Shown here piece after piece: positions 23,201 through 60,426 of a stretch of 64,000 bases of DNA (position 1 is the stretch's first letter; each line of letters starts with the position of its first letter). Under the pieces are notes generated by a model, which was not told where the DNA came from, ran no database searches, and saw only the letters and a program-made list of their open reading frames with translations. Where the stretch lies: the NCBI GenBank assembly GCA_964036195.1, contig OZ038453.1, positions 5,223,469-5,287,468 of the forward strand. The letters are read 5' to 3'. The translations under genes and the position numbers were made by a program. The DNA comes from Sphaerolaimus hirsutus. Its lineage: Eukaryota; Nematoda; Chromadorea; Monhysterida; Sphaerolaimidae.

Positions 23201-23227
23201 ATCAAAACGTGCTTTCAGGTCAGTTCC
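17263..23227 (+). repeat. 167-bp satellite array, right block (about 36 monomers)
   Basis: This block has the same monomer as the left block. The 835-bp five-monomer unit reappears at 17559 and, slightly altered, at 19728. The stretch 18560-19727 repeats 13360-14527 at an offset of exactly 5,200 bp. A 1,001-bp six-monomer unit beginning at 21327 is repeated at 22328. The array is interrupted on the right by the BEL/Pao 5' LTR. Confidence 0.95.
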
Positions 23228-27600: not shown

Positions 27601-28735
27601 TGACGACATAGCTGAACAGTTAATTCTGGAATCAATTACTCTCGATCCAGAAACTGGTCGCTATAGCGTAGATTGGCCATTCAAATCAACAATTCAAGAA
27701 TTGCCAACCAACAATGCAGAAGCATTTCGCCGCTTTCTGTCACTGTTGAAACGGTTTCGAAAAGATCCCGATTTATTCGCTACATACGCGAAAGTCATCT
27801 CAGATCAACTTCACAAGGGTGTCATAGAACCCGTATATGGTTCACAAGATGGTTTGCAAGAACACATCCTACCTCACCAACCTGTCATCACACCTGGCAG
27901 ATCGACAACATGTCGAATAGTGTATGATGGTTCTGCAGGCAAGCCAAGTCTCAACAACTGCTTATTCCGAGGCCCAGTTCTCACACCACTGGCGCTCAGA
28001 TTAATGCTTCGCTTCAGAGCCGGAAAAGTGGTGTTATTAGCAGATATTGAGAAAGCATTTTTACAAATTGCTCTTCACCCAAAATCACGCGCTTTCACAA
28101 AATTTTACTGGCTGCGTGATGACACTATTCCGTCTCACAAAGACAATATTCAAATGATGCAATTCACAAGGGTGCTGTTTGGTCCCACATGCAGTCCATC
28201 CATTTTGTCAACTGTTATCAAATATCACCTAGAAGCGGAATTAGCTCACATGCATCCCGCTGAGACCCATGAACGATTGAAACTGGAGCTGTTGCTCAAC
28301 AGCATTTACGTTGATGATTTAGTTATCAGCGTAGATGATGACAAATATGCAATACAGCTCTATCGTTTAATTAAAGCTGTTTTTGCCAGAGCAAATTTCA
28401 ACATGCGCGAATGGATGACAAATTCGCCTATTGTTTCGGAGAAAATCAAACCTGATGACCTCAACCCGAAAAAGTCACAATATATCAAAGTAATGGGTCT
28501 CGTTTACGATCACATTGAAGACACCATTGTGGTGCCAGCTCCCAAGAAAGATTTCACGCTCATTGTCACAGCCACACGCCGCAATTTGAACAAATTGCTG
28601 GCTTCAACATACGATCCCATTGGCATCACAGCACCTGCGTTATTTCAGTTGAAATTTCGTGTGTCACAAATAATTCAAAGGTGCAATATCACAACTTGGG
28701 ATGAACTCATCGAAGACCCAGAGGCGGATGACTAA
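24608..28735 (+). CDS. BEL/Pao gag-protease-reverse transcriptase polyprotein (first part, stops at TAA)
   Basis: The 1,375-codon frame starts at an ATG. Residues 1-170 are a hydrophilic, coiled-coil-like N-terminus. From about 200 comes LPKIELAKYNGDPLEWAAWW, the hallmark of BEL gag (DUF1759). Zinc knuckles begin near residues 490, 523 and 542; the first two are CX2CX4HX4C and the third has one extra residue. An aspartic-protease motif FFDTGCEYSYI lies near residue 781. The reverse transcriptase follows, with LADIEKAFLQI near 1145 and the catalytic IYVDDLVIS near 1237. The frame ends at TAA 28733-28735, just after the RT, where BEL polyproteins normally continue. The sequence immediately downstream continues RNase H and integrase in the same frame, so this TAA looks like a single nonsense change or a readthrough stop. 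Confidence 0.93.
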   Translation: MEERLRTQRGAQAAAAMPVSNVDESDTTHPLTQHSRALTGVRNGVLRFTSKPIPKIVKDKSQPAAVNLRAAEEVLELLQAYGYQAELKRSDLSQAMDKFTSIVQDHITSLDRDQDGVAEEIKSANAKLERALYSGSNNAMMLMDELESRMATAQAQIKSAERLILSLKGQSNVDLTTQPPSQPPYNNVNMGSSSQPSQPETLLKLPKIELAKYNGDPLEWAAWWEIFRAQIHDRANLSNGMKYTYLKLSLIGPAAELLAGLKGDGRDYNTAVTMLKSNFGEMHRVQATLWDKLYSLEKPSSRGDSLTNFTRTLLSTLNQLKERGESVDSGAVLRIIRGYLPDNIVLAVTEEHRNSMRTAATDDTELTVVRFVDALTTIARARLDAMKTEQQSSQSSNVVQKSQNSSLKKPQNGGGWQQQKKKGNKSQNTFSKQKPIHNTVAFAGTNANVGKQQGKNKNSTQPPRTPAIGAISQKQSSQPAADYRKPKFECLFCGIKEHYTTDCPQYVTPRERTERLQALGDVCTRCTRRGHQASQCTQQLSCYYCRQIGQHHGAFCPTRQAPARRQVNNSQNKTFVKATSANFVNAQVITTGAASSHAPPSYPPSHTEPMSVCVIPPDENDFRWRQHTLYQLDMDGPLDMGEWPKPANELQARAQEEARKYHSENELWTTLRASLIKDGMDMETVEAKIRGFQQKRYEMYPHLNPNQMSSSVPLQPSHRPTVEVLSAQAGYGNPNTATRQQAEQECEFDFAPIVRLQVAQASLINKDAELNRVTDPLLIFFDTGCEYSYIKASVANEYNFENKGDVVLQMNVFATKTPVTVNTFLVEAVMPIYKHVDNKGNMLQIPLTLRAVDNLATYACPPPLSQDDKTVIYIVYGEHTQEQFAEPLELTEMTDEFCHKLCQPDVVIGQDYYWKFDIRPTEIELPSGLIIVESILGLMLGGNASSQSFVTTPDISPHQFMVSCSSHASSAVAVGQETLFQFHSLESIGITDDPLSHDDDIAEQLILESITLDPETGRYSVDWPFKSTIQELPTNNAEAFRRFLSLLKRFRKDPDLFATYAKVISDQLHKGVIEPVYGSQDGLQEHILPHQPVITPGRSTTCRIVYDGSAGKPSLNNCLFRGPVLTPLALRLMLRFRAGKVVLLADIEKAFLQIALHPKSRAFTKFYWLRDDTIPSHKDNIQMMQFTRVLFGPTCSPSILSTVIKYHLEAELAHMHPAETHERLKLELLLNSIYVDDLVISVDDDKYAIQLYRLIKAVFARANFNMREWMTNSPIVSEKIKPDDLNPKKSQYIKVMGLVYDHIEDTIVVPAPKKDFTLIVTATRRNLNKLLASTYDPIGITAPALFQLKFRVSQIIQRCNITTWDELIEDPEADD

Positions 28736-31700
28736 CTGGACGATTTAAAACGACATCTCTCGTCCATAAGTCAAATCAAATTCCCACGCTCATTTCATTC
28801 TTTTGGCATCGATGTCAAAGCCGAAACACGGCCATTAGAATTACATGTATTTTGTGATGCCTCAAAAGATGGATACGCCGTTTGCGCTTATTTGCGTCAA
28901 AAAGCGATTTCACCTGACGAATATGGCTATGAAGATGACCGATATTTTAGTGGTTTTCTCACAGCTCGCACAAAACTAGCCCCGCTTCCGTCAAAACAAG
29001 GTCAACCCCTCACAATCACACGCTTGGAATTGCTAGGTGTCACAATTGGTGCACAGCTCATCGATTATTTACATCATGAACTCGCTGAGCTGGGTGGATG
29101 GAAAATTCTCAGTAATTTCCTCTGGACCGATAGTACAGTTGTCATCGGCTGGCTATATACCGCAAAGCCGCTGGCTACTTTTGTCAACAATCGGGTCACC
29201 AAAATCCATTCACTAATGTCAAAACATTGCATTCAAATTTGCAAGGTTGCTACAAAAGACAATCCAGCTGACATTGCGTCACGGGGTTGTACTTTTGATC
29301 AACTAATGATTGAAACAATGTGGTTTACCGGACCCACATTTTTCGCTGAACCCCTCACATCAACCATGCTTGACATTTTGCAATATCAAGCGCAACCTGT
29401 CACCGAAGAGCTTGCGAAAGGCGACACTCACATCAGTCGACCTTTATATGCTGGAGCAGTAACTTCACAGCCTGTTTCACAGCCTGATTCACAACCAGCT
29501 AATGCTCTTGCACAGCAAGCGCCTGTCAATTTGGACCCCAATTTGTCACAAAATGTCACTCCTCAAAATCCGTTTGTCGAAAGTCGACAACGTCACATCC
29601 CTTCAAATCCATTCGAAATCGACATTCAACGATTTTCAACACTGTCAAAATTGTTGCGCACTGTCGTATATCTACTTTGTGTCAAAACATATTGGCTAAA
29701 TCGCTCCATGCATAAAGCTGCAAAACGCGAAAGCGAATATTTATCAAAACCCATCACACAAGCTGATTTAAACGAAGCATTTAGACATGTATTGCGCATT
29801 TCACAAGCAGAGGAATGTGCCGGTTGCATTTCACAAGCGCAACTTGGCAAACACCACATGCTCAAATGGGACGCGTGGAATAATTTATTATATTGTGTCA
29901 CGCGTGTGTCTCACAAAGAACACCGAAACCCTTCGTTGTTTTACTACCTGCCAAAGACCGGGTGGTTAACAACGCTAGTGGTTACTCATTTTCATGAGCT
30001 TGCTGGTCACAGTGGCATGCTTCACACTTTAGCAGATTTACGCGAACACTGCTGGTTGTCAAGTGCCAAGCAGGTAGTTGCAAAAATTCTACGAAAATGT
30101 GTCACATGCCGCAAAGCGGAAGGAGGTCCATTCACATTACCTGATTTTCACACATTACCTGTCACTCGAACTCAATCACAAATCAAGCCATTTCAACATA
30201 TTGGCATTGATTATATGGGACCGTTAGTTTATTCACAGAATGGTACCCGTCACAGTCAACACATTTTGCTGCTAACATGCTTCAGCACACGCGCCATTCA
30301 TTTAGAGTCAACTAATAGTGTCTCAACAGCTGACACAATTATGGCTCTAAATCGTTTTATTTCGCGCCGTGGCATGCCGGACACAATTTGGTCCGACAAT
30401 GCCCCCGCGTTTAAAAACTGTGTCAAATTACTGCCGGACGTAAAATGGCATTTTATCACAGCCAATAGTCCTTGGCAAGGCGGCGTGTACGAACGCATGG
30501 TTGGATTAGTCAAACGCTTGCTCAAAAAAGCATGCGGACGACGTTGTCTCACATGGCATGAATTTCTCACAGTCATGCTGGACGTCGAATTCTCCGTCAA
30601 TACGCGACCATTGTCATACTTGTCAAACACAGACATTGGTGCAGCGATACTGGGCCCAATACATTTTCTTTGGGGCACCCCACCACCATGTTACATGGAT
30701 GAAAAACGTGAGATGGAACTCGATTCCACCACGATTGAACCCATGCAAAAAATTCCGAAAGAGGAATGGGATAAGCTGACGGATGGATCTTTCAATCTCA
30801 CACCTTCACAAATTGGAAAGTCCTACACACTCACACCCCCACGTGTCAATGACGTCAACTGCATTGATGAAATTGCACTCAATTCTGTACCTGAAAAGGA
30901 CAGAGATGATATCACACTACTTTGGGACCAAATTCGTCACAATCGTGAAGTGCTTTGGTATGAGTGGTCACGTCAATACATTGACTTACTCAAAGATCGA
31001 GCTAAAAATCAACGATTGAAAAAAGGTACAATCAACGAAGCTCCCAAACGTGGCCAAGTGGTGTTAATCACAGATGATAAACAGCCACGCGGCATGTGGC
31101 AAATGGGCCGCGTTCACGAAATACATGTGTCAAGCGATGGCAAAATACGTGCAGTCACAGTATTGTCAAGCAACGGCCGTAGCACACGTAGATCTCCATC
31201 TAACCTAGTGCCTCTTGAAATCGACACAGAGGACGGTGTTGAATATAAAATCGACACTGAGGTAAAAGATGATGATAATTCACAACCTTCACCTGATAAG
31301 AGTGATGATTCACAAACAGATCAATCACATCAACAATCACAATCTTCACAACAAGATGCAAGACGCGCAAACCCACGTCGAACATGTCGCTACACTGGCA
31401 CATATTCGTTCTGGGGAAACGTGTCGCATTTAATGGCGCTCACGTTGCTAATACAATCAAAATTAGCCAACGCGCTCACATGGACAGATCAATATCACAA
31501 AACTTTCAATCTGTGCCATAAAACACGCACTGGTCACGCAATTCAACTTCCGGAAAAAGTAACATGTCACTTTCCTCAAGTTACAACCATAGAAGATATT
31601 GTGGTATCCATATGGACGTTGCGTGTTCAGCCGCAAACGACACCAATTTATAGATGCTTTCAACAAGAGCATACTATAGTCACGTATATGAGTCTGGTGG

Positions 31701-32164
31701 GCGGAAAAGCTATGCTGCCACCAGAAATCATTAAAAACCACAGAGTCACAACCTACGATTGCATGATCGCCTACCAAAATAAAACTTGGAAAGGCGAACC
31801 CTTAATAAAAATCGGTCATGCATTGTGGAGCACTAACAAATCACTTCACATCGATTATTGTTACTTTTGTCACAATCTGAGTAACACAGTAATGAACTTT
31901 CACATAGAGGAAGGTGTGGTCGCAAGTCTTGACGGAAAGAAAATTGTTTCTGAAATTCAAGATCTGTCACATTGCAACCCACAAGCCGGCTATTGTTATG
32001 ACAGCGACAATGGCGTCTCTTTATGGAATGCTACTGCCTTTAACAAGCAGTGTGCATTCCAAGAGATTGGTCAATTCGATGCGCAATATTCACAAAATCA
32101 TTACAGTGGAAAAATTGCAAGCTGCATTTTCTGTCACATGGAGATCACAACAATTTCCAAATAA
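28736..32164 (+). CDS. BEL/Pao RNase H-integrase, continuing into env-like sequence
   Basis: This is the same reading frame as the upstream gag-RT, separated only by one TAA. LHVFCDASKDGYAVCAYLR at about 28840 is the RNase H start. The integrase has an HHCC zinc-binding region at about 29989-30110 (HELAGHSG ... CVTC) and catalytic residues D at 30209 (GIDYMG), D at 30395 (SDNAPAF) and E at 30491 (GGVYERMV), with 31 residues between the second D and E. A post-integrase domain with GQVVLITDDKQPRGMW near 31046 resembles the DUF5641 C-terminal module of BEL integrases. A Ser/Gln/Asp-rich linker follows (about 31260-31380), then env-like sequence. There is no ATG at the start, so expression depends on the upstream frame. 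Confidence 0.9.
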   Translation: MDDLKRHLSSISQIKFPRSFHSFGIDVKAETRPLELHVFCDASKDGYAVCAYLRQKAISPDEYGYEDDRYFSGFLTARTKLAPLPSKQGQPLTITRLELLGVTIGAQLIDYLHHELAELGGWKILSNFLWTDSTVVIGWLYTAKPLATFVNNRVTKIHSLMSKHCIQICKVATKDNPADIASRGCTFDQLMIETMWFTGPTFFAEPLTSTMLDILQYQAQPVTEELAKGDTHISRPLYAGAVTSQPVSQPDSQPANALAQQAPVNLDPNLSQNVTPQNPFVESRQRHIPSNPFEIDIQRFSTLSKLLRTVVYLLCVKTYWLNRSMHKAAKRESEYLSKPITQADLNEAFRHVLRISQAEECAGCISQAQLGKHHMLKWDAWNNLLYCVTRVSHKEHRNPSLFYYLPKTGWLTTLVVTHFHELAGHSGMLHTLADLREHCWLSSAKQVVAKILRKCVTCRKAEGGPFTLPDFHTLPVTRTQSQIKPFQHIGIDYMGPLVYSQNGTRHSQHILLLTCFSTRAIHLESTNSVSTADTIMALNRFISRRGMPDTIWSDNAPAFKNCVKLLPDVKWHFITANSPWQGGVYERMVGLVKRLLKKACGRRCLTWHEFLTVMLDVEFSVNTRPLSYLSNTDIGAAILGPIHFLWGTPPPCYMDEKREMELDSTTIEPMQKIPKEEWDKLTDGSFNLTPSQIGKSYTLTPPRVNDVNCIDEIALNSVPEKDRDDITLLWDQIRHNREVLWYEWSRQYIDLLKDRAKNQRLKKGTINEAPKRGQVVLITDDKQPRGMWQMGRVHEIHVSSDGKIRAVTVLSSNGRSTRRSPSNLVPLEIDTEDGVEYKIDTEVKDDDNSQPSPDKSDDSQTDQSHQQSQSSQQDARRANPRRTCRYTGTYSFWGNVSHLMALTLLIQSKLANALTWTDQYHKTFNLCHKTRTGHAIQLPEKVTCHFPQVTTIEDIVVSIWTLRVQPQTTPIYRCFQQEHTIVTYMSLVGGKAMLPPEIIKNHRVTTYDCMIAYQNKTWKGEPLIKIGHALWSTNKSLHIDYCYFCHNLSNTVMNFHIEEGVVASLDGKKIVSEIQDLSHCNPQAGYCYDSDNGVSLWNATAFNKQCAFQEIGQFDAQYSQNHYSGKIASCIFCHMEITTISK

Positions 32165-34322
32165 TGCAGAATGTGTGCCAAAAGACGCAAAATATATTGA
32201 CCAGGGCTCGGCATTCATTCAATTTCTTCGATATCAACTTAAGAAATTGAAAAAACCTGAAACCGAAAAAGCTCCTCTTCATTTCAAACTCGCACCAAAT
32301 CTTGATGTTGGTGTGTTTCACTTGCTCACAGCCCGTCAACAATACGAAGTTGACAAAATTGCACATCTAGAACAAAAACAATTTGGATCTATCTGGCAAC
32401 AATTATGTCACATCCGTCAGACTCAGCTAGATATAATTCATGCAATTGTCACATTCAATCCCACGCTTGGCTTGCGAGCATTGCTAGGACGTCAAAATCT
32501 CTATGCTGAATGGCATGGAGATATATTAATGTTCTGGGATTGTAAACCAGTCACCGCAGAAATTATTTATTTTCAACATGAATATAACAATACATGTTAT
32601 AAATTTCTCCCGGTAAAAGTCACAAATCACCCACATATTATGTTCGTTGCTCCTGGTACCAATGATCTGATCACACATTCACCAATAGATCATTGTCTCA
32701 TGAAAGATCACAAATATTATCAATTAAATGATAATTCATGGGCCAACGAAAACGGACCAACGAATTTGCACGTCACAAAACTCCCAATCGAATTAATTTG
32801 GGCTGGCTCGTGGAAACCATTCACACTAAATGTTTCCGGGTCACCAGGTGTAAGCATGACTGACATTGCATTCAGTATCATGGCTGCACATCATCACTTT
32901 CAAAATTTGCAACGACTCGAACAACAAGTCACACGTTCAGTCGATTATATTACAACAAAATCCAACGATCCTAAAGCAGTGCAAGCATATATTGCTGGCA
33001 TTGGCCAAGGGGTTGGTGCATATTTTGAAGGTGTAGGAAAAGTATTGGGTCACATCATTCACGGTAGCGTCACAGGTGGTGCGTCTGCATTAGACACGTT
33101 ACTTACTGGGCCACTTCAAACAGCTGTGAACATCATACTCATTATTATCACAATTGCTTGTATTGGGTATATTGGTTATGTTTACATGCAGTGGCGGCTC
33201 GTAACCGGCAGGGGTATGCTGCCAGACATCAAGGGCTTTTTCCGAAGAAAGGGCAGAAGGGACAGAAACCCAACCAAATGGGAGACCCGTCCGTTCAGCA
33301 AGGAAAAATTGGTAAGCGACGGCGACGTAACCGCCAGAAGAAACCGGAAAGCGGCTTCGACAAACCCGCTTTGTCAAATCAATCCGTCACACAATCGTCA
33401 AGTTCGTCACAGTTACCTTCAAAGTTTGTCACACCCCTCAAACGAGTATCTCCATTCAAACGACTTTCAGGACGCTCGGTACAGCCTAGATCGGATCCCC
33501 CGGTCGGTTATAGTACCGAACGCGCTGAAGAAATCGAAATGGAGACGGGTGCGCGCCGGGTCACAAAACCTGCACCCCCCTGCGAGTCACAACCGCAGAG
33601 CTCGTTACCAAACGCCAGACTCACAGTCACCGAGCCTGTCACAACGGAAGTCACAATGGAAGATGCGATCCCTGAACGCGAGCCCTTGCAAAAGCGACTC
33701 AAGAGATTCGCTGGAGTCGCAGGGCTCCCAGGTGAGCAGCAATCGTCACACCAGACATTTTCCTTTATACCCCAAACTTTTCACAAATTCAATAACATCA
33801 ATAAAAAACTGGTCAAATCAAAAGTTAAACGATCTAAAAAGATCCGTGACCTTCCTCAAACAAACACCTTCACAGTCCGACATAGAGCTCGGAGAGATGG
33901 AAGAAAGTCACGATCAAGAACTAGATCCCCCACCGTACCATTTGACCAATTCAACTCAATCACTTCACAATGTACTACCTCATTCACAACCTCCCATGTC
34001 CCCTTGCTATCAAGCCAACCGCTTGCAGCATCGGAGCAATGGCAGCCCACCGAGCCGTCGAAGGCGGTCGTCGACGAGACCGACACGCTCCGACAAGCCT
34101 TCGAGAGGCTCGCCAAGGAATCTGAGAAGCTCCCCAACTGGCCGGGCAGACCAGCGGGGGCCCCAGAAGACCAGGCGCCCGGACACGGGGAAGGCAGCCA
34201 GCCTGAGGAGGATGCCGTCGAACCCATGGACGAGCATCATGAGGAGGGCCGGGAAAATGCCGGCGTCGAAGACGCCGACGATCTGCTACCACAGGAGTGA
34301 TGAGAGTATCACAGGCGTTTGA
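31433..34322 (+). pseudogene. env-like glycoprotein region, frame broken
   Basis: An ATG at 31433 opens a short hydrophobic, signal-peptide-like stretch (MALTLLIQSKLANALTW) in the pol frame, followed by a Cys-rich, N-glycosylation-site-bearing ectodomain. That frame closes at 32164. The remaining ectodomain continues in another frame, open from 31914 to 34322, so a single indel somewhere in 31914-32164 explains the break; an A5 run at 32110-32114 is one candidate. Downstream are a Gly-rich segment, a strongly hydrophobic membrane anchor at about 33121-33190 (IILIIITIACIGYIGYVYM) and a long basic tail of about 370 residues with a PPPY motif near 33930. Env-like third genes are known in some BEL/Pao elements. 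No homology to a specific viral envelope family is claimed. Confidence 0.7.
33158..34300 (+). CDS. Overlapping frame across the env-like tail
   Basis: A 380-codon frame overlaps the env-like tail almost completely in a different register. The product would be hydrophilic: basic near the N-terminus (KRRRRNRQKK), Ser/Pro-rich in the middle, and ending in an amphipathic stretch LRQAFERLAKESEKLPNW and an acidic tail. The open start is not clearly a real initiation site; an acceptor splice or reinitiation would be needed. The overlapped tail frame also looks protein-like, so both could be coding. Chance openness is possible because the last 300 bp are GC-rich and also open on the minus strand. Confidence 0.35.
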   Translation: MYWVYWLCLHAVAARNRQGYAARHQGLFPKKGQKGQKPNQMGDPSVQQGKIGKRRRRNRQKKPESGFDKPALSNQSVTQSSSSSQLPSKFVTPLKRVSPFKRLSGRSVQPRSDPPVGYSTERAEEIEMETGARRVTKPAPPCESQPQSSLPNARLTVTEPVTTEVTMEDAIPEREPLQKRLKRFAGVAGLPGEQQSSHQTFSFIPQTFHKFNNINKKLVKSKVKRSKKIRDLPQTNTFTVRHRARRDGRKSRSRTRSPTVPFDQFNSITSQCTTSFTTSHVPLLSSQPLAASEQWQPTEPSKAVVDETDTLRQAFERLAKESEKLPNWPGRPAGAPEDQAPGHGEGSQPEEDAVEPMDEHHEEGRENAGVEDADDLLPQE

Positions 34323-48390: not shown

Positions 48391-48651
48391 ATTACATTTA
48401 AATGTTTGTCTTATTTGTGTTCAATTTACTTTTTATTCCAAGTTTTTAACAATATAAACATAGATAAAGAAAGAAAAAGATAAAAAGATTTTACAAACTA
48501 TTCCAAAATTTAACTATCTTGCATGAAAGGTTGAAAAATACAAATGACAAAGAAAAAAGAAAGGTTTGGACAAAGAAAAAAGAAAAATTTTCTGGTCGAA
48601 TTTTTTTCTTGACTTAACGCGTGAATCGAGAATCTGCGGCTGCGAAGCGGT
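48391..48651. other. Upstream flank or 5' UTR of the LINE
   Basis: Purine-rich sequence with AAAGAAAAAAGAAA runs. The 5' end of the LINE must lie near here, but no boundary or target duplication was found. Confidence 0.35.
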
Positions 48652-48702
48652 GTGGCCGTGGTGTGGCAGGTGTGTTTGGTTAGAAATGGGTCTAAACCAC
48701 CC

Positions 48703-51700
48703 ATGCTACGTATCGTAGCAACTCTCAAGACACTTTTAAAGTTGATTGGGAGCTTCAGCTACAAATTGGCATTGTGCCATAAATGTAGCTATTCCACTAT
48801 ACAAATGTGGAGTCCATTTGGTGGACAGGCTGTCACTGAGACGGTCAAATTGTCGCGACCTCGGTCCGACATTCTAACCAGATGCGCCTCTGTCGCATAT
48901 ATGTCGGACTACAATTCGCGACATACTTTGGCAGCGTGCCAATTCGGGCTATGGTCCCTAAATACCGGTGTTATTCATACTAACATTATAAATCGATGTA
49001 CATATTACAGACTCGAAAATACCTGTGCCTGCGACTGTGCTGAACGAAAGTCCACCCGTTGGATAAAAACGTTGTGTCGATACACCAACATGTCGATTCA
49101 ACCGGCAGTAAGTTGGGAATTGAATAATTTTGGGTTGATATACGGACTTGACGTATCGATTTATACAATCATACTGCCCAATAAAATATACTCGTTATAT
49201 AGTCAAGTAAAGGTACAATGTTTCACAGTGTCCTGTGTGGACAAAGCGCAAAATATGTTTGTTGGTGGCGAATCTTTGGTCCTGTTTGGACATAGCGCAA
49301 AATATGTGGGCTTAAAATTTTTAATGATCAGATGTATGATATTTCACAATGTTCTCTATAATGTAATATATCCGCAGAGTTCGGGGCTTGTAGCTGCGGT
49401 GCTTGCAACGGATATGGCTGACCAACTGGTAAATGCGCCCAACGTAAGCAACGATTCGAACGTAACGAAATCACGCCGAAGTCGTTTGGTTCGAAATCAA
49501 CTGCAAGATGCGAACACAAACAACGTGGACACATTAGCGGGTAAATATATTTTGAAATGGTGTAGTTTACGTGGAGAGGGTGCTTTATATGCAATGTCCA
49601 TTGAATTTCGATTAGGGGTAGCTATCATGTTCGTATACGGTCTTGTAATTAAAAAAAAATGGGGGAAATATACATTGAATTTATATAAACACTATTCAAA
49701 TACAGACAATAATCTCGATGCGGAGCGCCGCGAGAGTGCGGAATCCATGGCGATCGGGCCACAAATTGGCACAGTGCCAGAAGAGAGTGGTAGTGAGGAC
49801 AGATCTCAGGAAATGGAGGAGGATGTCGTTGATGACTACAATTATGGCGTAGGGTTCAATCCAAACTGTATTGTCGGTGGATACAGCCTCAACAGGCAGA
49901 TTCAGCTGGAGTCGGGAAGGGTAATTGAACCGGACATTCCCGAATGCACTACTGTGGATGCTATGGCCAAATCTATGGGTTGGTCAACATTTGTTATGAC
50001 TTGTGGTTTAATGAAAGGTACATTTGGAGAAAAATTAGGTAGTCTCTACAGTGCTATACATATGTCCATAAGCATCGTTAGACATTTGTATCTGAAAACT
50101 TATATGACATACATTATAGGCTTCATGTCGCGGCGTGGCCTGTACAACTGGGAATGCGCAACTTCAAAAGCCGGAAATGGCTATCTCGTCAGCGATACTA
50201 AACTGCACCCCTTCGAGCTGGCTTCTAGCATGGTGAAATGTTTTCACGAAAAAGGCCTGGCTACACCAAATGCCCTAGAGATGAGTTATCTAGCGACACT
50301 AGTACGGGACCTGGAGGAATCTAGGACGTTGCATGGCGACTACATGTGTCATGTTAGTTTAATACAGTCTACAAATGATGGTTATATAGCTTTGTGCAGT
50401 TGTCCAGCGGGTAATCATGGGACAACAAGTTGTCTAGATGGTTTAGTATTACATAAAAAATCGGAAACGTGTCGCAATATATTATTTTATAATTGTAAAC
50501 GGACTAGATCACTGCTGATAACATTTGGGCTGAATTTAGACTTAGCGTCTCCTGGGATAATTAGTTGTCCAAAAGTATTGGTGCATCTTTACTTCTTCAA
50601 CTCAAAATTCCCGTCTACTACAATTTCTGATAAAATCCAGCAATCTTATTCTTTATGTACACACATGAAAAAAATTTGTAATGATGAAAATTGTTCACAG
50701 TTGGAAATCGAATGTGCGAATGCATGTGGGCAGTTGAAATTTGAATCGTCCGAAATCCAAATGCAGCTTGGGGCTTTGTCAAATCGACTTAAAAGGGTGG
50801 AGGACGGTATGGCCGATTTAAAAAAGGTATGGGGTCATTTTATACGGTTACACTGCGAAATGATTATCTCAACTGTGGGTCGACTTTTGATAAAATACAA
50901 TATGAACGTAAAAAAAACATTGTCGCAGGGGAAAAGTGAACATGACGATGCGATTCGACAGATACACGCTCGATTGGCGACATTAGAAAGCGCCGGCAGC
51001 ACATTCCGTCAATCGATAGCACCCAAGCGCAGAATCGAAATGCCACCACCTAGCGCTGGGGGGGGTGCGAAGAGAGTACACACGGTCCGCGTAGGCACCG
51101 AGGTACGTAAAATTGGGACTTTTATTGGTTGCATACCGGACATAAGTTTGGGGTTATGTAACAAGGGTAAAATAGGAGCTGTGTGTGTTAATTCTAAGAG
51201 AAAAAGTAATAATTTAAATTACAAAAAAGATGGGGAATTAACGTTGATACTTAGAGTATGTATACCAGGTAGATTGTGCTATGGGAAATCGATACAATTT
51301 CATAATATATTTAGAGTTGTGTTACAGATAACCACACCGGCGACTACACCGTATCTGCCGCTGGCACCGGTGCACGAATTTAAGCCGAACATGGCGGACA
51401 TAGTGATAGTGCTAGAGGACCCCACAGACCCATTTGGCGGGTACTACCCCTGGCAGGTCAACGTCAAAGGCAACACTTTCGAATGCATTTTAAATGCGAT
51501 GATTTATGTGAGTATAGTTGGGATAATGTTCTTTGGTATTGAATTGGGTTTTATGTATATGGGACAATATTCGAACCTTGGCAAACATCCAACATGGGTA
51601 CTGTGTGATGAAAATGGGCGATTTTTTGTATTGGATCGATTTTTCAAATTGACACATTACACACAGGCTGAGGCGCTCGAATGTGCCACGCCGAACATGT

Positions 51701-54700
51701 CGAGCATGGCGTTTGCGTTAAACAGCCGCTTCGCATCGACAGACGGAACAAAATGGAAGGCGGATTTTCATGAATATAGAAGGGAGCTTGGTCGCGTATG
51801 GGGACAAATTACCAGACACGTGGATGTTTTGAAACTGGACGTGGCTAATAAGTGGTTTAGGACAGGTGATGGCCGCGACAGCACAAATGGCAGGCTGTAC
51901 GACACAATCGAGGAAGCGTCTGACACTGTCGCCTATGCGACATTAAAGACAATAATTCAAAATGCGGTCGACAATAATGCTGGACTGCGGTTAGAATTTG
52001 ATACTTCATTTGGTTTAGTACTTTTTTGTAAATATGGTGTAGTACTGTATGGGGATATAACCAACAATATATACGATACAAACCTCTGGACCACATGTAC
52101 ATTTAACTTTTGTAACATTGCTGCTGTTTTTTTGGTAAATAAAGCATTTCCCCGAGGATACAGTCTTTTTACAATTATTTACAACGTATCAATCATCCTG
52201 ATACAATTGCGCAAATTCACTCCCATTTGCAGCCAATTACTTTGGTCTTCGGGAAACGCCAAATCGCCATCGGGCGGCTGGATATGCACCAACCGTATGA
52301 TTCGGTGCGCGGGAGAAAAACCGTCAGAAGGCTGGCAAGGCGCACTAGTTTGCGGTGCCATCAAAGGAAAACTAGAAGTGAGTAGGTATTTCTTTTGGGT
52401 TTTGAGATCATGGGAAATTATACGTGGGGGTCTTGTGGGTATAGGGTATGCACAACGAACAACGTTGAGTACTTGTCACAAAATACAAATATCTCGATAC
52501 TCATTCCAATTGCAGTGTGCGATACCCACCGAGCACGGCCCGTATTACCTGGCTCCGTATATGAACCTGTATGGACAGGCGTGGATGGAAGTTCGGGATG
52601 GCCTAACGCTGGAAAGTGTATTCAGCAAACGTACGGACACGGGTGAAATCGAAGAGATCCCAGATGAGGGAATTTTTAAAGAGTTTGATGACATGCATCA
52701 ATGGGATGCCCGCGACAAAGCGAATGTTTACGCCAAAGTTCAAGCCAATATGATAGCGCCGGCTGACTACATGGAAACGGTGAGGGAAACTTTAGCTGGA
52801 TCTTACTTTAATGATTTTGGAACGGGAAAAACATCACTGAAATGTGCTGATTTTATACAGCAACGACAAAACGCTGCGTTCCGGCGTGGCTACGTTCCCG
52901 GCATGATTGACGCAATAGCTAGCCAACAGACGTCCGCTGGACAACAAAGCAGCAATGGACAACGCGGGCGCGGAAATCAAAGGGGTCGCAATACCCAAAA
53001 CCCAAGGGGTAATTCAAGGGGTGGCAGAGGTACTTCGCGGGACAATCAAAGGGGTCAGTTGTGTTTTAGGACTCTGCTAGCTGTACTACTGTTGATGGGA
53101 TACGGTGTAATTAAAGTAATGCCTTATAATCAAATTTCTCACCCACACCAAGGCATATACCCCAACTCAACTGAGAAAACACATTGTCTCGAATTTTCTC
53201 ATAACATAGCATCTGGGCATAAAATGTTGAATAATATTTGCTGTTTGTTATATCTACATTGTGTCTCAGGTCGCGGCTATGGGCAAGTGCCACGCGAGCG
53301 GACGGCTTATCAAAAAACCCAGAATAAACTGGCAGCGTTGCGAGAACCGGTGATGGAATGCGATCAGGTGGTGGTTAACGACCAACAAAGTTATGCGCCA
53401 GGTGAGCAGTACAGATTTAGTTGTAAGGAGTTTTGGGTAGCTAAAAAGTGGGACGTATTTGAATTACTGGGGTTGTCGAATGAACATACAGCTAGAATAG
53501 ACTTTTTTAACATTTTTGGGCTCGAAACTACATGTATCCAACACAAAAACTCGATTTCAGCGTCGAACTTCCATTTCGACGAAACGTTGGCGTCCACCGG
53601 TCAAGCGGCTGTGTCTCAGGGCGTTGTCCAGCACGCTGATGCCGGTCAGGGTGAAGCTGTTCATGGTGAGCAGGGTGAACAATCGACTTGGTTAACATTT
53701 GCACAGATATGCTTGAACAGGGATAGAATTCATGATTTAAATATATTTCAAAAGGGTTCTATAGTAAAAATTAGCAGTGTATTTTTCTCAGATTTTATGA
53801 GATCGCCCGTATACTTTCCAGATTTGACGAATGCGGGCGGCAGCAGCTCTACGGGCGTGGCAACCGAAGGCACTTATGCGGGCCACGCACAGGCTAGCGC
53901 CGCTTCGAATTTACGCAATACTTCACATCTACACGCCAAACTTGCCAAACAGGTGCGTATGGGCGGCGCCAGCACTCTCCATGTGAAGCCATGCAAACTG
54001 TATCGCCTCACCCATCTGGAACCATCTACGCGCCTCAAATGCACAAAAAGCTTGGCGTCGTATTATGAAAGCACAAGTGTCACGGATGATCAAACTCTGC
54101 TGACAGATGCGACATTTGGTCGACGCCCTAAAAAGATGTCAGATGTGCTACGCATGCTAAATAATGGTGTTGATATGGGACCGCAGTGCCCTTATAGGGA
54201 CATAGAATACACTTGCGCAATTAGAGTACCGCCGCCGAAATTTGTTGTGGAAAACGTAAATCCGTATGAATACTTTTTTACGGTTTTGTTATCGGGTGAT
54301 AGTACAGCCGGCTCTCTTTCCAGTGTTTTGGGTAGGGATTGCGCCGCTTACAATGTACCGATAGTGTTGCACTCGTCCAAAGCGCTTTTTAGCGGTAGGA
54401 GATTGCCTGCAATTACCGCAGCCATGAGTGAATTGACGTTAACGAGTTCTTATGACGCGGTTATTTTACGGTGTGTGCTAAATTCATGTGATGCTGAGCA
54501 ATATTTTGCGGTAGGGTTGAGTGAAACTTGTGTGGATGATTACTTTGTCACTGGGGTATATAAGTGTGTGTCTGAATTGATTAGCAATACGGGTATTTCG
54601 TTGCAACCAGCCGGTAAATTCATCCTAAGTCTAATAGGCCCGACGTTACCTAGGCACATGAAAAATGGCTGGGGTTCTGAATTGATTGCGGATAATTTTG

Positions 54701-55080
54701 ACTTTTTTCTGAAATTGGAAAATGCCTTGGTTGACCTTTGCGCAGAAAACTTCTCTGATGTAATTGTTCTGCCTATAATGCGTTTTTTGAGGGATAATTA
54801 TTCCGATATGCATTGTGATGGTAGGAATGATGCGTATATACAGATGCTTGCCAGGGACGGAATGCACACGTCAAAAGTAGGCAATGCTGTGCTGTCGCAT
54901 CTATTGCGCAAAGAGTTATTGAAAATGTGGGTTATTGATAATTATGTGAAATCGACCTGTTCATGTAAACTACTAATTTACATATTTACAGGGTGCGAGG
55001 CGTGGAGGCAGCCGAGTGAATGCAGTGGCGTCAAAAGGGCCCGTTCAGACACCTCTCACAGAACACTTCGCGCGGCAGAA
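48703..55080 (+). CDS. LINE ORF1 region, continuous frame with 13 candidate 3n introns
   Basis: In-frame ATGs lie at 48703 and at 49414 (MADQLVNAPNVSN). Protein-like parts: an acidic segment (about 49710-49850), a coiled coil (about 50700-50825 and 50930-51010), a gag-like region, an RGG-rich stretch at 52965-53055 (GQRGRGNQRGRN) and an SGNH-like domain at 54240-54920 with LLSGDSTAG and DGMHTSKVGNAVLSHLL. Between them lie hydrophobic, AT-rich segments bounded by GT and AG: 49108-49377, 49541-49705, 50018-50119, 50353-50700, 50827-50928, 51103-51327, 51508-51666, 51990-52232, 52378-52515, 52780-52860, 53054-53269, 53402-53560 and 53666-53821. Every length is divisible by three and none holds an in-frame stop. 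Unspliced translation gives about 2,126 residues fused to ORF2; splicing gives a more ordinary ORF1 protein. Splice sites were called by eye, without transcript evidence. Confidence 0.7.
54240..54925 (+). other. SGNH/GDSL-like hydrolase domain within LINE ORF1
   Basis: LLSGDSTAGSLSSVLG supplies the GDS nucleophile block, and DGMHTSKVGNAVLSHLL near 54858 supplies the C-terminal D-x-x-H block of SGNH hydrolases. YDAVILRCVLNSCD lies where the G/N oxyanion blocks are expected but is not a clear match. Esterase domains of this fold occur in ORF1 of CR1-like LINEs. Catalytic activity is not proven. Confidence 0.65.
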
Positions 55081-58000
55081 ATGAATACTTTAGGGTGGAA
55101 AATAAAATTTTTTGGATGTCTTGCAGAAACTTTTGTGCATGTGTTTACCTTTTTTGAAATGCATGTTGGTAATTTGATGGTTATGTTCAATACAGTCAAT
55201 CTTATGGTAAATTTATATGCGATGATCTGCCCAAATGGTCAACTGAACCGAAATACCAACATGCATCGTTATGCGAAACGGTACGAATGTTTTACTGTGT
55301 GGATTCGCCTATGGGTACTTTTTTGTGTTTTTGACTTGGTTGTTGGAATAAATAACGGTGGTGAATGTGATGACAATTTGACTTGCGATACAGGGTGGAT
55401 ACTTCCCCCCCTCTATCAAAATGCTAGATATTTAAAATGGAAATGTGATGAAGTTCTAACGGCTGTACAGAAAACGGGAAGTGCTATTTTATGCTTTGTC
55501 GAGACACACTTTAGATGCCCGACTGAAGCGATACTTGTACCGGGGTACAAATCGATTCATAGATATAAAGATGGTACAATAGCTGGGGGCCTGTCCATCT
55601 ATGTAAGAGATGATATCGCATTCAAGAGTGTGCAATGTAGTTGCGAAAATAATTTACTAGGAATAAGGCTTACGATAGACGGTAAAAAACATACAATCTT
55701 TTGTTGCTATCTAGAAAACAATAGTAAGGTAAAGAAATCGGGTTTTATACGCAACAAAAATATTGAAATTATGGAAGAACTAGGTAAGCATTATCTGCGA
55801 TGTGTGGATAATTCTGAGGAAATATTGATTGTAGGCGACTTTAATGGGCATATCGGTAACGATAAACTGGGGATAGAGGGTAACAACCCAGACATAAATG
55901 AAAATGGTAAAATCATAAGAGATTGGTGTGCAAACTATAATCCAGTTTTGCTAAATAAGTCATTCAAAAAAAAATGGACCTATGAAAGGGTGAATTCTAG
56001 CACGATCATTGATTTCTGTTTCACAAGTATCCAACTGGGGAAAATAAATGGGGATATAGATGATATAGGCGAGTTTTGCCCTCTGGTATCTGATCACCAT
56101 GCCATCATCTTAAACCTGACAGGGGTGTGCCAGGAAATTACAAAAAAGGATGTGTTGGTCAAACCTAGGGGGGATGAATGGACCATCTATAAAGAGTGCA
56201 TACCTTTCTTACAAATGGACACATACCAGAACATTGTCCAATCAATACACTCTGCTGCTACCACAGCAACTGATGCTAGAGTAAGTAAGGATAATAAGGC
56301 ACATGTAGTTCCACATCATATAAAGAAATTGCAAAGGCAAATAGGTAAACTAAGAAAAAAACAAAAAAAGGGGGATAATGATGACTTAAGAAGGTCTCTG
56401 TCTCATCTCAAATGGCTACTAAATAGAGCCAAGAGAGAGATAAACAAAAAAAGGAAAGATAACACGATAGGTAGATATCTGGAAAACAATTTTGGAGAGA
56501 TAAATGCTGTTTACAAGCACATTAACAAAAATTGGGCTGAAAAATTGCCAACAGCACAAATATTGGATGATCTAAACAAGCCTGTTGACACCAGTGACAA
56601 AATGAAAGTTGAAATGTCAAAATTATGGAATCATATAATGGACAGTAATCCTGGTTCTGCAACATGTCCACAAATAGCTAGCAAAATTGACCAGCCAGAT
56701 ACGGCGGAAATGTTAACCCCCTTCTCACTGGATGAATTGGCTAATGGTATGAAATGCCTAAAAAATAATAAATCTCCAGGTACATCAAACATTCACCATG
56801 AAATGTTAAAAAATCTGCCCATAGAGGGAAAAATGGGGCTTTTGGATATGTACAATTCTTGGCTAGATGGTGATCAAATACCAGATGAGGCAAAACTGTG
56901 TAAATTGGTACTACTTCATAAAAAGGGACCTAAATCTAACATGAAAAATTATAGGACGCTGGGTATAGGCTGCAATGTAAAGAAATTATATATGATCCTG
57001 TTGAATTATCGTTTGATGACACTTTGTGAGGAATTTAATATTTTTACAGAACTACAAGGTGGATTTAGGCCAAATAGAAGGACATGTGACAATGTTCAAA
57101 TCATACGTGCATGTCACAATTATGCGTTATGTAACGGAAATGCATTTTTTACATGCTTTGTCGATGCGGTAAAGGCATTTGACAGAGTGGATAGAAATAA
57201 ATTGTGGGAAAAACTTAAGTGCCTAGGAATCCCAGAGAATTTTGTGTCAGCAATTAGTAACGCTTATCGTAACATTAAGGTAAAAATGACATACGATGAA
57301 TTTATTTGTGATGCGATGGAATATCCAATAGGGGTGGCGCAAGGTTGTGCATTAAGTCCTACCCTATATGCATTATACATGCATGATTTAGCTGACAAGC
57401 TGTTGAGTACAGGTAGGGGTGCAAAGCTAGGTTGGAATAAACCCAAATTACCAGGACTGTTTTTTGCTGATGATATTGTTTTGATGGCCAATACTGCCCC
57501 TGAACTGCAAAGTCTAATGGATACATTCACTGAATGGGCATGGGGTTGGAACATCTCATTAAATAAGGACAAATCAAATATACTTTGTTGGGGGGTTCAG
57601 TCTACGGATAGAAAGTGGGGGTTGGGCTTTGATGCCCATAAGAATTTACAACAAATATCAGAAATAGATACAATAAAATATTTGGGTGTGACCATTACTT
57701 CTGAAACAGACCCTTTTGAGAAACATGCTAAAAATGCTGTCTTAAAGATGAGAAAGTTTAGCTCATTGGCCATTTTATCATCATCAAATACAACTAAACC
57801 TGGGCTTTACAGTAAGATGGCTTTCAAAAGTTACATTGAGCCAGCAAGTATGTATGGATTGGAAATTACAGGTATTAGCAAGGCATGTCTGCAAGAAATG
57901 GACAGGATATATATGCAAACTATGAAACGTTGTTTATTTTTGCCGCAAAATACAAGTTCTTCCAGTTTGCAAATAGATCTCGGTGGATATCTGCCTTCAG

Positions 58001-58617
58001 ACAGATATCGGCAAATGACAGTAACTTACTTTAACTATGCTAGATCACTAGACGGTACACGGCTACTTAAGCATGCTTTGGAAGTTGATGCCAACTTACA
58101 TAATCGGAGTAGGCTGGGTAAAATGTTAAGAATTGAGGACAGATGCAAGACCATTGCAACCACTATTGGAATTCCGTGGATAAACTTGTCGATATTAGTA
58201 AAGGGTAACGTTAAAAAAGTAGTTACAAATGCACGTTATACAGCGTGTGTAAAAGAGGTGAAAATGCAAAATATTAGTAAGCTTCGAAATGACATTGGTG
58301 AACAATTCCATCCCTCAAAACTTCCATACAATATTTTGTGTTGGTTTGCTGCACGCCACAATGCCGTGCGGCAACATGGTATAAATGGTCGAAAAATTTG
58401 TAATAAGTGTAGTAAGTCCCCAATTAAAGTGATAGGTGGTGTATATCATACACTGTATGTTTGTCCATACTTAGATAGAGAGAGAGAAAATATAATGCTG
58501 ACAAAATGCGTTTCTAACTGCACAGATAAATGTGCGTGGCTCTCTGTTCACAATTGTCAAAAACATCTAAAGTTGCTAAATGATATGTTGCACAAGGGTC
58601 TCACCTGGATGGTCTAA
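55081..58617 (+). CDS. LINE ORF2: APE endonuclease and reverse transcriptase
   Basis: ATG at 55081 lies in the long frame (MNTLGW); the product would be 1,178 residues. The first 100 codons are hydrophobic and may contain a further intron (one 3n option is 55169-55393). The endonuclease starts near 55400 with ILCFVETHF, continues with ILIVGDFNGHIG near 55830 and ends with LVSDHHAIILNL near 56090, the expected E, D/N and D-H catalytic blocks. A basic linker follows. The reverse transcriptase has ELQGGFRPNRRTCDNVQ, CFVDAVKAFDRVD, GVAQGCALSPTLYALYM and catalytic LFFADDIVLM (FADD) near 57465. The C-terminus has a zinc-finger-like ICNKCSKSP ... HTLYVC near 58400. It nicks target DNA and primes cDNA synthesis from the nick. 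No stops or frameshifts are seen. Confidence 0.92.
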   Translation: MNTLGWKIKFFGCLAETFVHVFTFFEMHVGNLMVMFNTVNLMVNLYAMICPNGQLNRNTNMHRYAKRYECFTVWIRLWVLFCVFDLVVGINNGGECDDNLTCDTGWILPPLYQNARYLKWKCDEVLTAVQKTGSAILCFVETHFRCPTEAILVPGYKSIHRYKDGTIAGGLSIYVRDDIAFKSVQCSCENNLLGIRLTIDGKKHTIFCCYLENNSKVKKSGFIRNKNIEIMEELGKHYLRCVDNSEEILIVGDFNGHIGNDKLGIEGNNPDINENGKIIRDWCANYNPVLLNKSFKKKWTYERVNSSTIIDFCFTSIQLGKINGDIDDIGEFCPLVSDHHAIILNLTGVCQEITKKDVLVKPRGDEWTIYKECIPFLQMDTYQNIVQSIHSAATTATDARVSKDNKAHVVPHHIKKLQRQIGKLRKKQKKGDNDDLRRSLSHLKWLLNRAKREINKKRKDNTIGRYLENNFGEINAVYKHINKNWAEKLPTAQILDDLNKPVDTSDKMKVEMSKLWNHIMDSNPGSATCPQIASKIDQPDTAEMLTPFSLDELANGMKCLKNNKSPGTSNIHHEMLKNLPIEGKMGLLDMYNSWLDGDQIPDEAKLCKLVLLHKKGPKSNMKNYRTLGIGCNVKKLYMILLNYRLMTLCEEFNIFTELQGGFRPNRRTCDNVQIIRACHNYALCNGNAFFTCFVDAVKAFDRVDRNKLWEKLKCLGIPENFVSAISNAYRNIKVKMTYDEFICDAMEYPIGVAQGCALSPTLYALYMHDLADKLLSTGRGAKLGWNKPKLPGLFFADDIVLMANTAPELQSLMDTFTEWAWGWNISLNKDKSNILCWGVQSTDRKWGLGFDAHKNLQQISEIDTIKYLGVTITSETDPFEKHAKNAVLKMRKFSSLAILSSSNTTKPGLYSKMAFKSYIEPASMYGLEITGISKACLQEMDRIYMQTMKRCLFLPQNTSSSSLQIDLGGYLPSDRYRQMTVTYFNYARSLDGTRLLKHALEVDANLHNRSRLGKMLRIEDRCKTIATTIGIPWINLSILVKGNVKKVVTNARYTACVKEVKMQNISKLRNDIGEQFHPSKLPYNILCWFAARHNAVRQHGINGRKICNKCSKSPIKVIGGVYHTLYVCPYLDRERENIMLTKCVSNCTDKCAWLSVHNCQKHLKLLNDMLHKGLTWMV

Positions 58618-59003
58618 ACTTAATGGACGACTGCCAAATCAATTCCCGGCTGATAACTGCAACAGCCGCTGTCGAGATGCCCCAATGAAGGTGAAATATA
58701 CGCATGTGAGTGGTATTTTTCTCGACTAAATCTGGATAATTTTCCCAGATACGTTGAGTTTTTTATCTTAGCTCATAGCGTGAAGTCCCATCGACGGGGT
58801 ATTTAACGTACAGTGGATGCGTGTGTGTATTTTCAGCCAGGATAATTTTCATTTGGTATCTGTCTATTTATGACCAATCTAATCGTACCCTTCTATGTGT
58901 CGCAATTTAAATGCCTCTTGGATGGTTGCTAAATTCATACATGTAATATTGTAACATACAGGAATAAGATATTAAGTTATTCATAGATCATGAAGACGTG
59001 TTT

Positions 59004-59038
59004 AATAAAAATAAAAAATAAAAATAATAATAATAATA
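59004..59038 (+). terminator. LINE 3' end: AATAAA and A/T-rich tail
   Basis: AATAAAAATAAAAAATAAAA followed by repeated AAT marks the 3' terminus. It combines a polyadenylation signal with the simple-repeat tail left by target-primed reverse transcription. Confidence 0.7.
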
Positions 59039-60426
59039 CGTATCGAAAAAATTCTTCTTTAAGAATTTAACAAATTCTTATGTCCAAAAATAAAGGCTAA
59101 TTAGAAAAAAGGTGCAAAAACAGAATGAAAATACACTTTTGTCACATTTGGATAGTTACTTCAACATTTGATCCGCCAGGTATAAACATGGTAGACGGCG
59201 CCTCCAGGACTTGGACGGTCGCGCAGCAAACTTTGGTGAAACAGCGCGGCCTGACAGCAAAAGGATCGAACAGGATCCTGGCGCCCTACATTGGTACGAA
59301 TTTTGGAAATTGGCGTGTTTATTATTTAGGGGGGAAAAAAATTTTTATTGGGAATTATGCCAACTATCGGCTGGGTGTGTAGCCTGGTAGAGTCGTCGAT
59401 CTGCAGCCTGGCTATCTATACGGTATAAAGGGAAAGATTTATTAGAAGTTGCTAAAATATACGTTAACCAGATAGCGAACATACATCGGGGGTTGATTCA
59501 GGGGGGTTGCGTTGACCGATATCGACAGCAAACCCTAGCCGAAAACCTTTTGTAGTCCAGAGAACGCACTGAGCACTGTGAGATGTGGACGTAATTTATT
59601 ACAATAAAATTCATATTTGAGGGGGATTATAAACTTCGAAATTATCAAAAATGAAAATATATAAATAAGGGGCGGTACATACAAGCCATGCTGCATGGTA
59701 ATTTCCGTCCTTGGTGTAAATTGAATATTCATAGGACATTCGTCCAAGAAAAGTTTAATCGACACACTATTTCTGATCCAGTTAAAGTCAATATTCAAGT
59801 AGGTAGGTGTGCAACCGCTAAAAATAGGTGAAACGATAACATCACAAGGTGTCATGACGGATAGATGGGGATAGATAGTGTGGAAGTGATATGGTGAAAA
59901 ATAGAGGGAAATATATGAGGTAAAATACACAATGCTTTGGAGCAAAAATATAAGATGGTCATGAAAATTAATGAGGCGTTATTTCGTGGGAACATGCTAC
60001 GCAAAAATATGTAGTATTTTGTATCCTGTATTTCTAGGTAATAATATCTTACACATTTTTGTTCCTTTTACAGGTGCTAAATCTGGAGCGGCGAGCAACA
60101 AACTGTGTGGCCGCGGGAATTCGCTGTGCATGTGATATACATTGTGATATGCGTGTATTGCGTGTACGCGTGTACCCAATCCGAAATTTTCGCTTTGATT
60201 GATTGATTGAAAAGGAACATTTTAACATTGGGATTGAAATTCGTGTTTGCCATTTTAGTTTTTGAAATCAGGTTTTGAACTCTTAGGTCATGGGGTTTGG
60301 ATCACAAATCTGAAACATGCTCTAGATTTGTGAATGCATCAATTTTGTACACTACTGATGGGGGCTGGTGCAGAATCTGATCAGCATCCAATCCAAGCCC
60401 ATTGCATTGCGGTAAGGTCCAACCCA
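59039..60426. other. Unassigned DNA with exon-like pieces
   Basis: A GC-richer segment at about 59165-59293 reads MVDGASRTWTVAQQTLVKQR and is followed by GGTACGAATTTT, a possible donor. At 60073 a strong acceptor (TTGTTCCTTTTACAG) precedes another GC-rich segment. These could be exons of a host gene or of another LINE copy. No family is recognised and no reading frame joins them convincingly. Confidence 0.25.

Follow-up and report, generated by a model that had tools for sequence, protein, structure and literature searches.

The stretch of Sphaerolaimus hirsutus DNA analysed here (the window: 64,000 nucleotides (nt) of GenBank contig OZ038453.1, or G000:C4:5223469-5287468 in a searched genome of 348 Mb and 762 contigs) carries on its forward strand a long interspersed nuclear element (LINE) of about 10.5 kb at 48552..59039. 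The 5' edge lies where similarity to the near copies L038 and L039 starts (48553 and 48552, respectively) and the 3' edge in an (AAT)n-like short-repeat tail recognised by eye at about 59022-59039; no target-site duplication was recognised by eye at 48552/59039. A DNA search found dispersed copies, 96-98% identical to the element, on C15 and C9. Nearly the whole LINE is one open frame, f0, which extends from stop to stop over 3,330 codons (48625..58617) and takes in a leader, the exons of a first open reading frame (ORF1), all introns, a linker and ORF2. The enzymatic part consists of an Exo_endo_phos_2 endonuclease domain (PF14529, 55696..56109) and a reverse transcriptase (RT) domain (PF00078, 56929..57696), both above the Pfam cut-off. 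An APE-type endonuclease followed by RT within one ORF is the arrangement of a LINE, and Pfam detected no GIY-YIG endonuclease of the Penelope kind in the element.

ORF1 ends in an SGNH/GDSL esterase-like domain (54241..54924), recognised from motifs and structure comparison: GDS and DGxH are invariant in nine esterase sequences, and the esterase model (mean pLDDT 79.8) gave 1yzf as best Foldseek hit (E 4.8e-5, TM 0.53) and three SGNH/GDSL-type hydrolase hits with E <= 0.001. An SGNH esterase in ORF1 is a feature of CR1/L2-like elements, and two ORFs with an esterase in the first form what we take to be the CR1/L2-like architecture. The spliced ORF1 product (1,130 amino acids) had no match at E <= 0.001 among the best 7,987 candidates scored out of 5.8 billion proteins, and Pfam returned nothing above cut-off for pieces of it; the ORF2 protein searches yielded 8 and 19 matches at 21-26% identity, the closest database RTs being 22-26% identical. 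Neither Rfam, at the gathering threshold, nor a tRNA scan gave any match in the window.

Examination of ORF1 revealed thirteen GT..AG segments on the forward strand: introns 1 (49108..49377, 270 nt), 2 (49541..49705, 165 nt), 3 (50018..50119, 102 nt), 4 (50353..50700, 348 nt), 5 (50827..50928, 102 nt), 6 (51103..51327, 225 nt), 7 (51508..51666, 159 nt), 8 (51990..52232, 243 nt, phase 2), 9 (52378..52515, 138 nt), 10 (52780..52860, 81 nt), 11 (53054..53269, 216 nt), 12 (53402..53560, 159 nt) and 13 (53666..53821, 156 nt). The first-pass annotation had proposed these segments as introns, all multiples of three in length (3n) and stop-free, in a LINE frame open for 9,966 nt. They were located exactly where it had put them, their lengths and total of 2,364 nt were reproduced, and the ORF at 48652-58617, counted from the first GTG, indeed measures 9,966 nt; the 3n claim holds for the thirteen and fails for a fourteenth intron (54931-54991), considered below. 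The contrast between frames that it had reported is equally real: the thirteen introns contain no stop among 782 codons in f0 versus 71/780 and 69/776 in the other sense frames. Dinucleotide shuffles predict 52 stops in f0, and the product of the thirteen per-intron chances of containing no stop is about 1e-24, with one intron (0 of 1,000 shuffles stop-free) entered as 0.5/1,000. GC content is 0.31-0.40 in each intron versus 0.49 in the exons.

Several observations show these segments behaving as introns. Searching the genome with the DNA of the ORF1 region retrieved two near copies and at least 61 further matches from distant copies. The 61 matches end at the proposed exon edges, overlapping any intron by at most 19 nt each, and their summed overlap with introns is 387 nt versus 6,074 nt for random placement. 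Extra DNA lies between the exons in all 27 pairs of neighbouring exon matches from distant copies whose gap spans introns, although gaps spanning several introns do not prove the presence of each single one. In relatives at 35-73% protein identity, a custom spliced aligner that leaves intron length unrestricted placed introns whose phases agree and whose positions match to within one residue, although their lengths differ; the positions of introns 7, 8 and 9, for example, are common to L035 and L036 (35-36% identity), and core introns range from 73 to 879 nt.

In 101 introns from 13 elements the donor is AG|GTRAGT-like, with G+5 in 85%, and the acceptor is YNCAG, with Y at -5 in 101/101 and C-3 in 95%; these are GT-AG borders with a host-like spliceosomal consensus. 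This logo is partly imposed by the aligner, which rewards GT, AG, AAGT at +3..+6, C or T at -3 and pyrimidines generally; the -5 pyrimidine preference is sharper than its scoring could impose. Splice sites also change less than intron interiors (10/80 versus 417/1,354 between L045 and L046). Two eEF2-type genes (L051, L053) used as a host control have similar splice sites, and 4 of their 21 introns are 3n, 3 are stop-free and none is both; in this small control, a genome-wide host rule of open 3n introns finds no support and was discarded. In the eEF2 gene at L053, long C-runs frequently precede the CAG that closes an intron.

Since intron positions are common to different families, copying must have run through unspliced RNA. 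In the ORF2 part of 17 loci (six cover most of ORF2, and the rest stop ahead of it or soon after entering it) no intron was placed, as expected if ORF2 must work from unspliced RNA. Introns might also persist through an antisense RNA or DNA template, with the open frame unrelated to their survival; introns are retained in Penelope elements, for which an antisense template has been proposed (PMC3846280, in the text available). Such a template has no need of open introns, and the antisense frames of introns 1-13 do contain stops (41, 38 and 36). Moreover, the enzyme is an APE-type endonuclease joined to RT. We regard this explanation as highly improbable.

In six elements selected by a long RT frame, 39/39 core introns were 3n and stop-free, a circular result for this set because exons lying in one open frame force 3n. 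As these loci (L031-L036) were chosen by frame length, the openness could in principle be an artefact of selection or chance. A second set of eight loci was therefore informative, having been assembled by exon similarity alone (best matches plus four hand-chosen from the search table): 54/64 of its core introns are 3n, 54/64 are stop-free and 50/64 are both. Their f0 has 28 stops in 4696 codons, the other frames 382/4675 and 378/4667. This set refutes the artefact, to which the window shuffles and the absence of nonsense changes in three pairs of copies (below) leave a negligible chance. The design looks widespread in the genome: among the best 150 of 3,823 RT candidates scored, 65 matches are of LINE-like length (>= 700 nt), and a count by hand puts 24 of them in frames open for at least 2,000 codons, two of the 24 having stops inside the match.

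Substitutions between copies were then compared by codon position. At positions 1/2/3 the introns of the window and L039 differ by 37/41/36 and the exons by 12/4/39; for the more diverged L045 and L046 the figures are 166/159/152 and 32/13/131, respectively. Intron substitutions being flat over codon positions, no peptide is conserved, and the ratio of non-synonymous to synonymous changes (N/S, observed over expected) is 1.00-1.24 of neutral in five pairs; the lack of protein-like conservation on which the first proposal depended is thus borne out. Nonsense changes are the exception, with 0 in introns versus 3.4, 7.6 and 7.9 expected in three pairs (18.9 in total), and 8 versus 28.8 and 6 versus 23.3 in two pairs containing the broken copy L046; with members recurring among the pairs, the comparisons are not independent.

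The splice sites themselves follow the same rule, since donor variants avoid in-frame stops according to intron phase. Donors of the form GTRA/GTAG, which create a stop in phase 2, occur in 0/13 phase-2 introns versus 41/88 introns of phases 0 and 1 (p 0.0007), and a stop triplet at +3..+5, which matters in phase 1, in 0/24 phase-1 introns versus 18/77 elsewhere (p 0.006). Acceptors ending in TAG, which would be read as a stop in phase 0, occur in 0/64 phase-0 introns versus 4/37 elsewhere.

Two readings that give the segments a coding role meet these data poorly. In long-frame copies the segments are open and in frame, as they would be if, rather than introns, they were variable linkers coding for parts of a giant ORF1-ORF2 polyprotein; the flat substitutions and near-neutral N/S, the variable lengths, the AT-rich composition, the host-like GT-AG borders at fixed positions, the phase-dependent choice of donor and the switch by intron 14 into a conserved tail all argue against linkers, which are very unlikely. 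Exitrons, described as GC-rich, stop-free and 3n with mostly synonymous substitution (PMC4494720, in the part consulted), share the stop-free 3n state, and alternative segments of that sort could be retained to widen the protein repertoire. The low GC of the introns relative to exons and their N/S close to neutral speak against this, and we give it scarcely any credence. Coding linkers, exitrons and chance were all rejected on this evidence.

The fourteenth intron (54931..54991, forward strand) measures 61 nt (3n+1) and is stop-free in f0. Splicing at 54931 would lead in the +1 frame to a C-terminal tail of ORF1 (54992..55084) closed by a TGA stop at 55082-55084. We measured this intron in 13 loci, those that cover it with a tail recognised by eye, of which 11 are not nearly identical; acceptors were chosen by eye in all 13, and the tails of L054, L057 and L067 were also first read by eye. 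Its length is 55, 58, 61, 64 or 277 nt, that is, 1 modulo 3 in 13/13 loci, and in all 13 its removal leads into the +1 frame, where about 30 codons of tail precede a stop, while f0 stays open across intron 14, the tail and about 20 further codons without any stop. Mean identity of the tail is 0.51 in the spliced frame versus 0.22 in f0, and differences among eight elements fall 307/266/549 on the codon positions of the spliced frame. The +1-frame tail of the window includes PLTEHFARQK. The motif [LI][ST]x[HY]FARQ is present in 8/11 loci and looser in L033, L035 and L036; we take the tail to resemble a PCNA-binding PIP box, a putative assignment. Sixteen loci were fetched for intron 14, of which three were counted, two were repeats (L056, L064) and 11 belong to other families; this tail was not found in these 11. 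By eye, four of them, L058/L062 and L059/L060, have other ORF1-like tails (RGG-rich and PPKKRL, respectively), with stops outside f0. An overlapping donor, GTNNGT at 54927, 4 nt upstream, would define a 65-nt intron leading to an unconserved tail, and was dropped on that account; as only the donor at 54931 yields the conserved tail, intron 14 is best placed there.

Together, these observations suggest that the ORF1 introns of this LINE are probably spliceosomal introns kept translatable, with the peptides that they encode irrelevant, and that they serve a division of labour between RNAs. Fully spliced RNA, with intron 14 also removed, would be the ORF1 messenger, the frame switch giving the conserved tail, the stop and a free ORF1 protein. 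Unspliced full-length RNA would have two roles, as copying template and as the messenger that has the ORF2 endonuclease-RT in frame with the start, so that ribosomes would cross every ORF1 intron on the very molecule to be copied before they reach ORF2; only RNA that retains intron 14 would have the enzyme in frame. If ribosomes must cross the introns, introns 1-13 need to be both 3n and stop-free, intron 14 only stop-free. Human L1 proteins prefer the RNA that encodes them (cis preference; PMC5860796, in the portion at hand). Under a similar preference, a copy with a stop in an intron could not be copied from its unspliced RNA, and spliced RNA would supply no ORF2. Intron positions, splice consensus, openness, unconstrained peptides and the frame-switch tail are read directly from the sequence; from them we infer splicing, translation of unspliced RNA, cis preference in this element and release of the enzyme. 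The first-pass annotation had already suggested an unspliced yet translatable full-length RNA beside a spliced RNA for a shorter ORF1 protein, and with splicing as predicted here this agrees with the tests run.

Openness might alternatively serve only to shield unspliced genomic RNA from nonsense-mediated decay (NMD) or similar surveillance, ORF2 being made otherwise, for instance by re-initiation past the ORF1 stop. Introns of several species are reportedly biased against the stop-less 3n class, as if NMD removed retained introns (Jaillon et al., cited in PMC2911113, as far as the excerpted text goes). Re-initiation would be favoured by the ATGA overlap of the ORF1 stop and an f0 ATG seen by eye in the window, L032, L036 and L067 (4/11 non-identical loci); the overlap is absent in the other 7/11. 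An open f0 over intron 14, the tail and the following codons in every measured locus is needless for re-initiation, and evasion of NMD alone leaves unexplained why the open frame is that of ORF2. We consider this alternative unlikely.

The division of labour between spliced and unspliced RNA would leave the enzyme fused to a long junk polyprotein, from which it would have to be released, perhaps at a signal-peptide-like site before the endonuclease. A hydrophobicity scan located such a segment at 55315..55347 (forward strand). Across loci a hydrophobic stretch with a small residue after it lies some 30-57 residues upstream of the YQN-like motif that opens the endonuclease, with an n-region that mostly has basic residues, a hydrophobic core and A/G at the putative cleavage point. 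Eighteen loci with the segment were chosen by eye (the window, L031, L032, L034, L040, L049, L054, L055, L057, L059-L061, L063 and L065-L069). The hydrophobicity score reaches 2.3 in 16/23 anchored loci versus 10% of 113 windows of intron peptide; L035 and L036, misanchored in the scan, have LMSFFTPVNA and LMSLFTPVNA by eye, and the segment is absent in L058 and L062. Differences by codon position at the segment are 18/4/29 for L065/L066 (37/35/45 upstream) and 19/10/24 for L031/L057, and nearly flat for L032/L034 (22/18/23), L032/L049 (21/18/24) and L034/L067 (26/20/28). In some pairs, amino-acid constraint on ORF2 appears to begin at about this segment. It looks like an internal signal peptide; a role in releasing the enzyme from the junk part would be speculative, and hydrophobic residues are in any case favoured by T-rich sequence alone.

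A number of observations weigh against this model. Fourteen of the 64 core introns in the exon-homology set are not both 3n and stop-free (5/8 in L049, 3/8 in L046, 2/9 in L048 and one each in L047, L050, L044 and L045), and L038 has lost 8 nt from intron 10, so that the expectation that relatives share the rule stands for the 50 conforming introns and fails for these. We take most of the fourteen as presumed decay after insertion. A 203-nt intron, not 3n, is common to L044 and L046; it sits at a C-run, where a sequencing error is possible. Outside the core positions the aligner placed further non-3n introns in weakly aligned stretches, six among the long-frame elements and five among the exon-homology loci; some contain stops, and the counts exclude them. 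For intron 14, the upstream donor (GTGGGT/GTCAGT/GTGTGT) fits the donor consensus better than the one chosen. In a codon count restricted to 3n, stop-free introns, hence with zero stops by that choice, sense codons of intron f0 differ from those of the other frames by up to about twofold each (chi-square 265 over 61 codons, CGN low), which may reflect a weak bias beyond the removal of stops. Lastly, an open leader and an open intron 1 require a start codon far upstream. The leader with exon 1 (48625..49107, forward strand) is stop-free in f0 and under little or no amino-acid constraint, its differences from the window over aligned codons 61-161 being 54/52/54 in L034, 55/54/60 in L032 and 32/25/34 in L047; MSDYNSRH at 48901 is common to the window and L047.

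Other features deserve mention. Intron 9 of L039 (window position 52510) has a 162-nt insertion relative to the window which is 3n and leaves the intron stop-free; it overlaps a stretch that L039 matches twice, which suggests that part of an open intron was duplicated internally. Elsewhere in the window lie a 167-bp satellite repeated in tandem about 106 times (5466-23227) and a BEL/Pao-type LTR element (24608-34322) with gag/pol pieces, in which a reading frame matches the viral fusion glycoprotein family PF24664 (E 3e-10). Two short, LTR-like RT matches, at G000:C3:21887261 and G000:C16:23421047, fall in open frames that reach 4,837 codons and far exceed the majority; another type of element may share this kind of design.

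On balance we favour the view that the element represents an undescribed class of introns: ORFs empty of peptide function and maintained by selection, combined with a 3n+1 switch intron and a signal-like site that may free the enzyme. If this is correct, neutral sequence records the end-to-end translation of the unspliced RNA of a retroelement, and the translated molecule is the copied molecule, which is cis preference seen by evolution rather than by reporter assay. A LINE that splits labour between spliced and unspliced RNA would also reveal a new kind of constraint on introns. Retention of the introns may serve to keep the synthesis of ORF1 and ORF2 apart, or to disguise the element.

Among known elements, CR1/L2-like LINEs share an SGNH esterase in ORF1, the APE-type endonuclease and RT that follow, and the short-repeat 3' tail. 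The element described here differs from them in its 14 ORF1 introns, in an ORF2 that is in frame with the start only if intron 14 is kept, and in an ORF1 stop hidden in another frame. In retroviruses, unspliced RNA is both the genome and the messenger for RT, and spliced RNA gives another protein; here there are 14 introns and a LINE-type endonuclease-RT, and the introns themselves would be translated. No description of a LINE with stop-free 3n introns was found among the best-ranked titles of the open-licence literature, which is weak evidence of novelty. Exitrons resemble introns 1-13 in being intron-like, stop-free and 3n (intron 14 is not 3n), but in the consulted text they are GC-rich and conserved as coding sequence, whereas the introns of the element are AT-rich and near neutral at the protein level (PMC4494720). 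Penelope-like elements likewise keep introns through copying; they have a GIY-YIG endonuclease and a proposed antisense template, and the available part of that account mentions no stop-free 3n rule (PMC3846280). Human L1 also has splice sites inside a LINE, together with cis preference and spliced copies (SpIREs) that can integrate. However, splicing inhibits L1 retrotransposition and its spliced copies are called "dead ends", as far as the same partial source goes (PMC5860796), whereas here the splice sites are kept across families. A possible benefit of introns to the element is offered by HUSH, which in human cells silences long intronless transcripts and from which introns protect even when unspliced, long ones more and short ones little or not at all (PMC8770142, in the text at hand). 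Silencing of this kind, described in human cells, could provide a testable reason for introns in a LINE, which would resemble a host gene to silencing aimed at intronless transcripts.

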